Assembly (NCBI GenBank): GCA_905221605.1
Contig: CAJNDS010002527.1
Span: 129,501 to 193,500, forward strand
Reading direction: 5' to 3'
DNA: 64,000 nucleotides
DNA from: Symbiodinium natans
Lineage: Eukaryota > Sar > Dinophyceae > Suessiales > Symbiodiniaceae
A program made the position numbers and the translations under genes. Below the pieces are notes generated by a model. The model had not been told where the DNA came from. It was given only the letters and a program-made list of their open reading frames with translations, and made no database searches. Shown piece by piece: positions 15,834 to 24,169 of the stretch. Each line of letters opens with the position of its first letter. Position 1 is the stretch's first letter.

Positions 15834-15835
15834 TC
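15834..15835. other. candidate 2-bp target-site duplication (left TC)
   Basis: The dinucleotide TC directly precedes the left terminal repeat and again directly follows the right one (24,168-24,169). Removing the segment plus one TC leaves a continuous minus-strand reading frame. Confidence 0.55.
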
Positions 15836-15861
15836 CCCCGAGGCTCCGCTTAGACTATTTA
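15836..15861 (+). repeat. left terminal inverted repeat, 26 bp
   Basis: Starts CCCCGAGGCTCCG and ends CTATTTA. It differs from the right repeat only at positions 14 (C/A) and 19 (A/G). Confidence 0.85.
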
Positions 15862-15975
15862 CTGCCAAACTATAGTCAAGTTAAAATTTAACTATTAGTT
15901 AATTTTTGTAGTTAAAATTTATCCACAAATAGTTTATTTTTAACTCCTGAATATAGTGTAAAATCTATATTTTCC
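15862..15975. repeat. left AT-rich subterminal block
   Basis: Contains repeated GTTAAAATTTAAC- and TTAACTATTAGTTAA-type motifs shared with the right subterminal block, plausible transposase-binding repeats. The second motif is a near-perfect palindrome. Confidence 0.7.
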
Positions 15976-16057
15976 ATGCTGCGATTTTGAAGCGGGTGCT
16001 GGTTTTGAGGTTCACGTCATGTCCGGCATGGGGGGGGGGCAGGGCGGGTAAAGAAAT

Positions 16058-16079
16058 CCGATAGCTTTTTGGCTCTAAG
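16058..16079 (+). other. relict spliced-leader-like sequence
   Basis: CCGATAGCTTTTTGGCTC-TAAG resembles the dinoflagellate spliced leader with two one-base insertions and a small change in the middle. It sits 30 bases before the ATG at 16,109. Confidence 0.5.
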
Positions 16080-16108
16080 TGTCAGCTAGTGCGTGACCGT
16101 TGAGAGCC

Positions 16109-17473
16109 ATGGCTAAGCAAAGTGTCCTCGCCCTCGCTTTCGCTGCTCAGCAGCTAGCCTCAGAGGCCGAGCCCAAGCCAGAAGCAGAGACTGCTCCTGA
16201 AGGAAGCCCCGAGCCGACCGAAGATAGGGCACCAAAGGCCAAGGCAGCCAAACCGCAGACGAAGGCGAAGGCGAAGGCCAAGGCCAAGGCCAAGGCCAAG
16301 GCGAAGACCGAGGCCAAGCCTAAGAAGGCCCCCTCGAAGAAGAAGGGTGAAGAACCAGAAACCGCCCAGCCGGAGGGGGCCGAGAAGCCTGCCAAGCCAG
16401 AGCCTCCTGAGCCACAGACTGAGGAGCCGAAGGCTGAGGAGCCGAAGGCTGAGGAGCCGAAGCTTGAGAAACTGTCAGCTGGAGCACGCCTGAAAAAGCG
16501 TGCTGCCGAGCTCGAGCTGCCGGACCTCGAGCACCTCGAGTCGGGACAGACAACGAGCCAAAACAGGCGAGACAAAAACAAGTCGCACTTCTTTGAGAAG
16601 AACCTGTCTCAGCTTCCCCAAGTGGTGCAAGAGCTCTTCGAGTCGAAGCAAGTGAGTCGCTCGGACAAAACTCGCTTGGTGAACGAGAACGTCGAGAAGG
16701 GCCCAGAAGGAAAGTGGCACTTTGCTCTGAAGCCGACCGTCCTCGAATCGCTCACAACCTCGTACTCCTCGGTTATGGGGAAGACTCGCGACAAGGCATA
16801 CCCCAAGGCCGTGGCGATCGGGAAATGCGGCGGCGAAGCCAACTTCGTCCGCGGCCTCCAGGAGGGGGACATCGAGGCCGTCGATGAAGGGGGCAAGAGG
16901 ATGTACAAGTTCAGGTGTGTGGAGATAGAGACGGCCAAAGGCTGCACCTCCCAGACCAACCACAAGCAGCAGGAGCATGCTTCGGCGGATGCCACGAAGC
17001 AGTTCCTCGCCTTCTGCGAGAGCTTCCAGCCTGAGTTGGTGCCGTCTGCGAGCTTCCAAGACGGCGACGACCTTCCCCCCTTGCAGAGCTCCAGCACGAC
17101 AGCCCCCTCTGCCAGCCTTGCGGCCTCGAGCCGATCGAGCCCGATCCCCTTGGCCATCTGCGACGGTGCCGTGGACCTGCAGCCAGCAGACCCCAAAGTC
17201 CTGGGCAAGGTCGAGGATGCCCTTAACTGGTTGTCTACTGCCAAGACAGCGACAATGAAGCTGAAGAAGCTTGAGGGCTCGGTCACCTACACCAATCTCA
17301 AGCAGGAGCTTGATGCCACCTGGGAGGTTCTCCTGCCCCTGCAGGCGAACCTTGAGCAGATCAGGCTTTGCGGGAAGGCTTCTCTCACCAAACTGAAGGC
17401 TGTGATGAAGCAGTTCAGCCAGCGCCTTCTGCAGGCGCAAGAGCTGATCAAAAGCATCAATGCCTTGCAGTAG
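16109..17473 (+). CDS. Lys/Ala/Glu-rich mobile-element protein of unknown function
   Basis: 454 codons from the ATG at 16,109 (context GCCATGG); an upstream in-frame TTG exists but is unlikely. The first ~140 residues are Glu/Pro/Ala/Lys-rich with a poly-(Lys-Ala) run near residues 50-70 and repeated EEPKAEEPK units, a composition typical of DNA-binding tails and also of biased dinoflagellate proteins. A more complex domain follows (about residues 155-305: FEKNLSQLPQVVQELF, GKWHFALKPTVLESL, IGKCGGEANFVRGLQ, MYKFRCVEIETAKG), then a Ser-rich linker and a C-terminal helical, probably coiled-coil segment (from about 360). No catalytic motif seen. It opens the plus-strand cargo of the TIR element and has spliced-leader-like sequence just upstream. 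I recognise the style of protein as dinoflagellate but not a function. Confidence 0.75.
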   Translation: MAKQSVLALAFAAQQLASEAEPKPEAETAPEGSPEPTEDRAPKAKAAKPQTKAKAKAKAKAKAKAKTEAKPKKAPSKKKGEEPETAQPEGAEKPAKPEPPEPQTEEPKAEEPKAEEPKLEKLSAGARLKKRAAELELPDLEHLESGQTTSQNRRDKNKSHFFEKNLSQLPQVVQELFESKQVSRSDKTRLVNENVEKGPEGKWHFALKPTVLESLTTSYSSVMGKTRDKAYPKAVAIGKCGGEANFVRGLQEGDIEAVDEGGKRMYKFRCVEIETAKGCTSQTNHKQQEHASADATKQFLAFCESFQPELVPSASFQDGDDLPPLQSSSTTAPSASLAASSRSSPIPLAICDGAVDLQPADPKVLGKVEDALNWLSTAKTATMKLKKLEGSVTYTNLKQELDATWEVLLPLQANLEQIRLCGKASLTKLKAVMKQFSQRLLQAQELIKSINALQ

Positions 17474-18259
17474 AGGGGAAGCTCTGTCGATCCCAGAGGC
17501 CTTGATCGCCACTATCAGATCGGGCCAGTGGGACCGGCTAGCGAACTTAGCGAACCGAGGTTAACACCAGCTGTGCACACGAGAGGGACTCGTGTCGGGA
17601 AGCTTGTGTTGGAAAAGGTGCGTGGCTCTTGCGCTTTAGGTCGTGGCGTGAGGAGGAGGGTTCTAGCTTTAAGTGGTGTAGGAGGGTTCGAAGGGCTTCT
17701 CGTGCGCAGTGCTTTGTGCTGCTGTTTGTGGGCTCAAAGCTGGCCCTCCCGGTCGCACTGGGATGCCCAAAAGTTCGAGGCCGGGCTCTGCCTAAAAACG
17801 GGGGGGGGGGGGGGCTAAGAGGGTTTAGGGTTTAGGGTGCAGGGTTAAGGGACCTATAGGAGAGCCGAAAAGCTTCACTGGGGAGGTTTGGCGGCCACAG
17901 GCTGGGCAGAGATTCCCTCACCAGACCACTCCCTTGTGGAGGTTTGGCGGTGAGGGTCTCTGCCAAGCCTGTTGGCCAGACCCCCTTGGAAGCCAGGCGG
18001 CCTTGCAGGGCATTGGGTTTTGAAGTTTCCCGAAAAACTCAACCAACCCTGAACCTCGACTCCCGAAAAACTCAACCAGCCCCTAAACCCTAAACCCTAA
18101 ACCCTAAACCCTAAACCCTAAACCCTAAACCCTAAACCCTCAACCCTAAACCCTAAACCCTAAACCCTAAACCCTAAACCCTAAACCCTAAACCCTAAAC
18201 CCTAAACCCAACCCCTGTGCAGGTCGAGGACTCCGTGCTCTTGGTCGGTCTGCACCAGC
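17474..18259. other. intergenic stretch with telomere-type repeats
   Basis: No gene. It holds a 12-14 G run near 17,802, short TTTAGGG copies at 17,821, a GGTTTGGCGG direct repeat about 17,886 and 17,941, and the long CCCTAAA block below. Confidence 0.7.
18079..18208. repeat. telomere-type (CCCTAAA)n block inside the TIR element
   Basis: About eighteen units, nearly perfect. It ends about 50 bp before the ATG at 18,260 and is followed by TGTGCAG/G, a possible 3' splice or trans-splice acceptor. Confidence 0.9.
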
Positions 18260-23336: not shown

Positions 23337-23443
23337 ACTGTAGCGGTAGCGAGCCGGTTTTGAGGTCAGCCTGCGACAGGCTGGAAAAAATCAAAGGGGA
23401 GAGCGTCTCGAAGCACATACTTTCGGTTTGAAATCTTGATTGT

Positions 23444-23464
23444 CTGCAGCCATTTCGCCTCGAG
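23444..23464 (+). other. relict spliced-leader-like sequence (16/21)
   Basis: Ungapped match with AGCCATTT intact in the centre and CTCGAG at the end; 16 of 21 bases agree. It lies 34 bases before the ATG at 23,498. Confidence 0.6.
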
Positions 23465-23497
23465 CTTCTTAGTTTCTTCTGCACCCCTCCCTCCAGC

Positions 23498-23941
23498 ATG
23501 GGAGCCAGAAAGGCAAAACCCTCACAGCAGAAGACTGTGAAGAGCGGCCAAGAGAAGAACCAGAAGCTTGACACTGCTAGCGAGTCAGAGGCGGAAGCCA
23601 GCAACTCAGCAGCAGGGCCAACTGTGGAAGTCTTGGACAGCCCGGAGAAACCGCAGGGGCTCTTGAAGGAACGGATCCAAGCAGAGGACACACTCTGGCT
23701 GCTGGGCCACTTCGGGGCCAAGGCGCAAAAGTTCTTGTCCAAGCACCCTGAGAAGAAAGAGTTCTTCAAGGAAGCCTTGGAAAGAGCCAGTCTGTACGAA
23801 AAGAAGGCCAAACACATCTTGAAGAGGAACCTCTTCAACTTGAGGGCGGACAGCAGTTTCGACCACTCTGCAGCCCGATGGCATGCTGTGCAGCTCTCTG
23901 TTCTCTGCACCCAACACACCCGTGCTCTGAAAACTGAGTAG
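23498..23941 (+). CDS. small basic protein, unknown
   Basis: 147 codons from ATG at 23,498. Lys/Glu/Ser-rich N-terminus (about 50 residues), then helical segments (TLWLLGHFGAKAQKFLSK, EFFKEALERASLYEKKAKHI) and a short C-terminal region with SSFDHSAARWHAVQL. No catalytic or metal-binding motif seen. It is the last cargo ORF, about 70 bp before the right AT-rich subterminal block of the TIR element, and has spliced-leader-like sequence upstream. Function unknown. Confidence 0.65.
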   Translation: MGARKAKPSQQKTVKSGQEKNQKLDTASESEAEASNSAAGPTVEVLDSPEKPQGLLKERIQAEDTLWLLGHFGAKAQKFLSKHPEKKEFFKEALERASLYEKKAKHILKRNLFNLRADSSFDHSAARWHAVQLSVLCTQHTRALKTE

Positions 23942-24009
23942 TCGCTGCCTCGAAGACTTGAAAAAGGGCCGCCTGGAAAACATAACCATGTATGACTCAA
24001 ACCTGAAAA

Positions 24010-24141
24010 TAACAATTTTTTAGTATAAAAATAGACTATTTTCATAGTTAAATTTTAACTTTGGGGATAAGATAAATTTTAACTATTTTTATGAAATAGT
24101 ATTAATTTTAACTATTAGTTTATTTTTAACTATATAGTCTA
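24010..24141. repeat. right AT-rich subterminal block
   Basis: Repeats of TTAACTATTAGTTTA, GTTAAATTTTAAC and AAATTTTAACTATTTTTAT-like motifs, matching the left subterminal block in composition and motif content. Confidence 0.7.
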
Positions 24142-24167
24142 TAAATAGCCTAATCGGAGCCTCGGGG
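24142..24167 (-). repeat. right terminal inverted repeat, 26 bp
   Basis: Read on the minus strand it starts CCCCGAGGCTCCG; 24/26 identical to the left repeat. It also supplies the last codons and the stop of the interrupted minus-strand gene. Confidence 0.85.
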
Positions 24168-24169
24168 TC
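24168..24169. other. candidate 2-bp target-site duplication (right TC)
   Basis: Matches the TC at 15,834-15,835 on the other side of the TIR element. Confidence 0.55.

Follow-up and report, generated by a model that had tools for sequence, protein, structure and literature searches.

The DNA analyzed here, which we will call the window, is a 64,000-nucleotide stretch of the dinoflagellate Symbiodinium natans (GenBank assembly GCA_905221605.1, contig CAJNDS010002527.1, positions 129,501 to 193,500 of the forward strand). Within it lies an element of 8,332 bp (window positions 15836-24167) with 26-bp inverted ends, a TC duplication, and six genes on the plus strand, here g1 to g6. The element is very likely a complete and recently mobile dinoflagellate DNA transposon, probably of the cut-and-paste kind, with g4 as a putative transposase of the CMCT layout, accessory genes, and mRNAs that are probably spliced to the dinoflagellate spliced leader (SL). 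By inserting, it split an open member of a different repeated gene family. The boundaries and the two halves of the interrupted target gene are as follows (C and L numbers denote contigs and loci of the same genome).

13986-15835, minus strand: downstream half of the target gene, which belongs to a repeated gene family (73 stretches of the genome match this half)
15834-15835, no strand: target-site duplication TC, left copy (exact 2-bp overlap at empty sites L050 and L059)
15836-15861, plus strand: left 26-bp terminal inverted repeat (TIR; same end on contig C558 with 0 mismatches)
15862-15985, no strand: left AT-rich subterminal region with AGTTAAAA repeats
24006-24141, no strand: right AT-rich subterminal region with AGTTAAAA repeats
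24142-24167, minus strand: right 26-bp TIR
24168-24169, no strand: target-site duplication TC, right copy (empty sites)
24170-25175, minus strand: target gene, upstream half (empty-site comparison)

An earlier note on this DNA had described a TIR transposon with a 26-bp inverted repeat, AT-rich subterminal repeats, and TC flanks, and all of these were recovered. The left and inverted right ends are identical at 24 of 26 positions. This is the top inverted 26-mer match between the two 700-bp end regions, and 200 mononucleotide shuffles gave a maximum of 20. A control on real sequence speaks against the match, as 6 of 285 random segment pairs of the window score at least 24; those pairs start in 1.4-9.9, 17.9, or 61.3-62.3 kb, zones rich in AAACCCT arrays, which presumably cause the high scores. 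The subterminal stretches are 71% and 77% AT, versus 44% in the element interior. Read inward, the octamer AGTTAAAA occurs twice in the left 150 bp and four times in the right 190 bp, is absent from both strands of the interior, and occurs twice in the remainder of the window.

Removal of the element plus one TC (8,334 bp) yields a single minus-strand stop-to-stop frame of 959 codons, in agreement with the earlier claim of a precise insertion into another mobile-element gene. Two paralogous empty sites, relatives of the target gene in the same genome, show both flanks adjacent. At L050 (contig C2058), the left 600 bp match at 98.2% and the right 700 bp at 96.7%, with an overlap of exactly 2 bp; this locus carries no insert and is 95% identical in protein to the downstream half of the target gene, with two stop codons of its own in the matched stretch. 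The same 2-bp overlap is found at L059 (C1917), with 76.7% identity on the left and 85.5% over the first 62 bp on the right. A peptide spanning the join aligns unbroken through nine relatives drawn from 12 loci (L050, L052-L058, and L060, of which L052-L058 are close to one another) at 49-97% identity. Of the 73 genome stretches matching the downstream half, many lie within open frames longer than 1,000 codons. By our reading, this family, whose interrupted member covers 13400-15812 and 24170-25175, is DDE-transposase-like; it has no significant Pfam match. Adjoining the target gene is a minus-strand open reading frame (ORF) of 1,046 aa (26354-29494) with no Pfam match and no relative found in viral_contigs; by our reading it may be a nuclease-like protein of the target gene's mobile element.

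The genes of the element, and a satellite array among them, are listed next; copy 2 is the near-identical copy on C558, and C1, C270, and C2022 carry more distant relatives.

16109-17473, plus strand: g1, 454 aa, Lys/Ala-rich N terminus and conserved C-terminal part, putative accessory gene (homologs at C1 and C270; 30% match at C2022)
18260-18985, plus strand: g2, 241 aa, Cys/His cluster, candidate DNA binder (cluster also in the C1 copy)
19381-19620, plus strand: g3, 79 aa, weak gene call (100% in copy 2, 83% in C270, no C1 match)
19780-20340, no strand: satellite array of 43/32-bp units inside the element, upstream of g4 (partly matched in C1)
20432-22168, plus strand: g4, 578 aa, DDE transposase candidate of CMCT layout (conserved residues, relatives)
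22314-23336, plus strand: g5, 340 aa, C-terminal cluster, candidate DNA binder (cluster also in C1)
23498-23941, plus strand: g6, 147 aa (same sequence in copy 2; unmatched in C1 and in the C270 part given)

A genome search for the end pattern with at most two mismatches returned six ends, which form three pairs (the window, C558, and C1), and none in the control. Copy 2 is 8,252 bp long, is flanked by CA on both sides, and is identical at 8,242 of 8,252 aligned bases (10 mismatches). It has two gaps, one of 13 bp close to a telomere-like array and one of 67 bp in g1, at which the reading frame of that gene is lost; the other five proteins are 99.6-100% identical. Because of this frame break, g1 may be dispensable in cis. 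Copy 3, on C1, has ends of its own (24/26 matched; termini CCCA..TGGG, against CCCC..GGGG in the window copy) and AA on both sides, a duplication read from the printed flanks. It keeps the order g1-g2-g4-g5, with g4 split over two frames at 67% DNA and 65-69% amino acid identity; neither g3 nor g6 has a tblastn match there at E 1e-3. The two findings that the earlier note had named as telling against a transposon, no second copy with these ends and flanks that are not adjacent in relatives, were thus both looked for, and neither holds.

Relatives without readable or convincing ends extend this picture. At L048 (C270:115800-124800), identity is 96% for g4, 83% for g3, 88% for the C-terminal part of g1, and 34% for g2, a mosaic hinting at gene exchange between elements. 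No match to g5 or g6 was found on C270, parts of which read N, so that these losses are unproven; N also lies on both sides of the stretch, so its ends cannot be read. On C2022, a 620-aa relative of g4 is preceded by a g1-like gene of the same orientation, and a search of 9.4 kb (11-bp exact seed) gave no convincing ends, with pairs of at most 17/26 and none with a 2-bp duplication. In all, 64 diverse stretches of the genome match g4, some of the genes being in two pieces. A g4-like gene with 29% identity to g4 scores equally at eight places (L022-L029), which may reflect a recent expansion of its own; its N-terminal part is matched nearby as a second piece, and the two may be exons. Outside the host genome, neither relatives of g4 nor the exact end pattern were found in viral_contigs or genome_contigs, and no relatives of g5 were found in viral_contigs.

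The DDE-like transposase candidate proposed earlier corresponds to g4, whose D-D-C(2)C-H(3)H-E layout is kept in relatives at 21-26% identity. The residues are D181 (in VPLVLHGDG), D269, C288-x2-C291, DLMHTKHLG at 335, H507-x3-H511, and E530, with 87 residues between D181 and D269 and 260 between D269 and E530. We aligned g4 with 12 relatives at 21-96% identity (ten at 21-26%), picked from 30 loci, leaving out N-terminal pieces and near-duplicates. In this alignment, D269 and both cysteines are present in all 12 covering rows and D335, H338, and G343 in 13 of 13, and both histidines and E530 are found in 11 of 12. D181 is present in five of the six rows covering it, and the sixth (L021) is read as misaligned. 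The fuller pattern with both sequence motifs occurred in none of 20,000 shuffles of g4, and the DxMH motif, from D on, in 16 of 20,000. Taken from D on, the motif [LVI]-D-x-[LM]-H-x3-L-G of the TRC elements discussed below is found in 12 of 13 rows (L036 lacks the L); the preceding position is P in g4 and L in three of the 12 relatives (L019, L034, and L036). These conserved residues point to g4 as a DDE transposase of CACTA/EnSpm (CMCT) layout, with catalysis probably by the residues named.

Together, the ends, the duplications at three sites (TC, CA, and AA), and the conserved residues suggest how the element would move: g4 would recognize and pair the CCCCGAGG... ends, cut, and insert with a 2-bp stagger, here into the open target gene. 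In En/Spm, TnpA binds subterminal repeats and helps build the transposition complex. By analogy, g2 and g5 are the probable binders of the AT-rich subterminal repeats and would assist in assembling such a complex, since their clusters, read by eye, are kept in C1 despite low identity: C-x7-C-x12-H-x4-H in g2 at 33% overall, and C-x2-C-x6-C-x2-C at the C terminus of g5 at 40% over that part. The conserved g1 would be an accessory protein.

The six co-oriented ORFs of the earlier note all lie on the plus strand, five of 147-578 aa and one of 79 aa, but length does not support every one of them. In 200 Markov-1 versions of the element, the longest ATG-initiated ORF had a mean of 162 aa, a 95% level of 224, and a maximum of 290; g1, g4, and g5 exceed all of these and g2 the 95% level only, and g6 and g3 gain no support. 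A Pfam scan of the six genes and four flanking ORFs returned only matches below the family cutoffs. The array directly upstream of g4 is built of TTTCGCGGGAATTTCGACGAAACTTCCACGG-like units of 43 and 32 bp with inverted symmetry, and a related array is present in C1. Short AAACCCT/TTTAGGG telomere-like arrays are numerous at 1-9000, 17820-19260, and 61900-63900 and also occur on either side of g2, in the g1-g2 and g2-g3 intervals.

In all six comparisons with C1 (g1 in two pieces, g2, g4 in two pieces, and the N-terminal part of g5), changes are most frequent at third codon positions, and the ratio of nonsynonymous to synonymous substitution (dN/dS) is 0.08-0.30, values that are indicative only, as dS is 1.2-4.1 and near saturation. 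For g4, dN/dS is 0.08 against C1, where dS is saturated, and 0.25 against C270 (dN 0.023, dS 0.092). By this codon evidence, g4 is under constraint.

Among known transposons, En/Spm and the plant CACTA elements share with the present element several proteins, subterminal repeats, and a DDE transposase, but they have CACTA termini, 3-bp duplications, and two proteins made by alternative splicing. For En/Spm, size is alike as well, at 8.3 kb (PMC1636069). The CACTA-related TRC elements of animals and fungi, including SmTRC1 and elements of Tribolium and Aedes, have a TIR starting CCC, a 2-bp duplication, two Asp about 80 residues apart, CxxC, and DxMHx3LG, and their dimensions are similar (27-bp TIR in Tribolium, 9.2-kb Aedes element, 560-aa SmTRC1 transposase) (PMC1636069). 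In its ends, duplication, motifs, and size, the present element resembles them closely. The present element differs in lacking a Transposase_21 profile match, in the Pro of g4 in place of L/V/I before the motif Asp, in its SL-like marks, and in gene number, about six against the single ORF described for SmTRC1 (PMC1636069).

The wider CMCT clade comprises EnSpm, Plavaka, ESTA, Lanisha, Chapaev, Mirage, and Transib (PMC12730594). As described there, its members resemble the present element in having C(2)C and H(3-4)H between the second D and E and duplications of 2-5 bp, and some carry a further gene, TET/JBP; most, however, have CA..TG ends, and no TET/JBP-like Pfam match was found in the present six genes. 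Another large element, the 11.5-kb CMC element Sly1-1 of Neurospora, has a transposase and a second gene, and its TIR and target-site duplication were shown through strains without Sly1-1; it has only that one other gene, and a related fungus carries the pair in divergent orientation (PMC4592977). In the literature searched, which included few subscription papers, no description of a multi-gene dinoflagellate transposon with SL-like marks was found. The earlier suggestion that this is not a standard described family is thus supported for the multi-gene, SL-marked dinoflagellate form but not for the transposon kind, as CMCT layout and 2-bp duplications fit a known clade: the element is a new multi-gene, recently mobile form of a known, CMCT-like kind of transposon.

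The claim of spliced-leader marks also held up: leader-like sequence precedes five of the six genes, 29-50 bp before the start codon.

16058-16079, plus strand: SL-like sequence before g1, gapped match, ending 29 bp before the ATG (reached by 1 of 1,000 permuted queries)
19312-19332, plus strand: SL-like sequence before g3 (27 of 1,000)
20376-20396, plus strand: SL-like sequence before g4 (2 of 1,000)
22243-22263, plus strand: SL-like sequence before g5, ending 50 bp before the ATG, as in C1 (8 of 1,000)
23444-23464, plus strand: SL-like sequence before g6 (3 of 1,000)

The 21-nt dinoflagellate leader (DinoSL) occurs 205 times in the genome as an exact match, and the reversed control not once, which identifies the host as a dinoflagellate. 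In the 100 bp upstream of g1 to g6, the best ungapped matches are 14, 10, 14, 16, 14, and 16 of 21, only g2 being at background. Their sum, 84 of 126, is reached by none of 2,000 permuted leaders (mean 62.4, maximum 73), nor by any set of random places, 3,000 such sets having been drawn outside the element and 3,000 inside it. The gapped sum is likewise reached by none of 1,000 permutations, g2 alone scoring 830 of 1,000 in the per-gene test. Ten long ORFs outside the element, with mechanically assigned starts, score 9-12. A 15-nt relict match gives a resemblance of 11-12/15 for five of the six genes and 8/15 for g2. For the C1 starts of g1, g2, g4, and g5, scores are 14, 12, 11, and 13, a sum reached by 1 of 2,000 permutations. 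Because leader-like sequence precedes five of six starts, each gene is probably expressed as its own SL trans-spliced mRNA.

Several observations weigh against a complete CMCT-like transposon with SL-marked genes. Only one near-identical partner copy is known. Taken by itself, the D-D-C(2)C-H(3)H-E order appears in 1,247 of 20,000 shuffles of g4 and is weak evidence; it counts because relatives keep it, although among these L033 is without the H(3)H-E part, and L015, in the aligned frame, stops short of it. Neither whole g4 nor any of the 13 aligned proteins has a significant Pfam match (one chance-level hit, E 0.15), and the best hit for three pieces of g4 is also at chance level (E 0.19) and not a transposase. 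PDB gave no match to g4 by sequence, the best profile match being an unrelated GTPase at E 0.6. A single-sequence AlphaFold model of g4 has a mean pLDDT (per-residue confidence) of 38 and is useless. The leader score in C1 is near background before g2 and g4, and C2022 has no mark at either gene tested (two-gene sum 20; permuted mean 20.3). Against C270, dN/dS is 0.63 for the end of g1 and 0.73 for g3, indicating little constraint, and g3 and g6 are not shown to be family genes. Finally, the ends are not CA..TG. Transposase_21 (PF02992) matches neither g4 nor the 13 aligned proteins at E<=1, nor the three g4 pieces at E<=10; a PF02992 search of the genome also found nothing, to which we give little weight, as 14 controls likewise gave none. 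Since CA..TG ends and this profile were both sought without success, formal assignment to CMCT is tentative.

An alternative is a new superfamily-level DDE lineage that shares only the catalytic layout with CMCT and lies outside the EnSpm/CACTA branch. The lack of a significant match to any Pfam transposase family for g4 or its 12 relatives, the CCCC..GGGG termini, the 260 residues between D269 and E530, and the diversity of g4 relatives within the genome all favor such a lineage, but DxMHx3LG, CCC ends, and a 2-bp duplication coincide in CACTA-related elements (PMC1636069), and we consider it somewhat unlikely. That the six genes are cargo between ends moved by a transposase encoded elsewhere would agree with the frame break of g1 in copy 2 and with the genes unmatched in C1 (g3, g6) and C270 (g5, g6; losses unproven, as noted). 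This passenger scenario is highly improbable, as every one of the three copies with such ends has g4 between them (split over two frames in C1), and g4 is under constraint. A Polinton or virus-like element is ruled out by the absence of Pfam matches above cutoff in ten ORFs and by the 2-bp duplication, and an introner by the broken frame and the several genes within the element (PMC9860276).

The SL-like sequences themselves admit two origins. A relict spliced leader upstream of the coding region is a known mark of retrogenes in dinoflagellates (PMC6050394, PMC12014239; the screen in the latter used option -m 5, taken to mean five mismatches). The element might accordingly move as DNA yet grow by RNA, its genes having entered as retrocopies of SL-tagged mRNAs, each with its own leader relict now serving as promoter or trans-splice acceptor; we hold this to be unlikely. 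There is a nearly even chance that the sequences are instead selected trans-splice acceptor sites that resemble the 3' end of the leader and are not relicts of retroposition. That end is the best-kept part (GCTCAAG in g3, g4, and g5), the spacing to the start codon is narrow, and the 50-bp spacing of the g5 mark is kept in C1 despite near-saturated synonymous sites. Against selected acceptors stand the matches in the 5' half of the leader in g1 (CCGATAG), g4 (CCGT), and g6 (AGCCATTT), together with the established use of leader relicts as a retrogene mark.

As a bounded, recently mobile dinoflagellate DNA transposon with empty sites, comparable copies, and many divergent transposase relatives, the element makes it testable whether SL relicts can arise from, or be kept within, DNA transposons. 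Because many g4 relatives occur in one genome and none of the 13 scanned has a significant Pfam match, the g4 family may help annotate unnamed dinoflagellate genes. For genetic work on these algae, the ends and transposase might also be worth trying as a tool. Elsewhere in the window, at positions 42106-42647, a unit of 31-32 bp with the palindrome CTCAGAACTCGAGTTCTGAG is repeated about 17 times.

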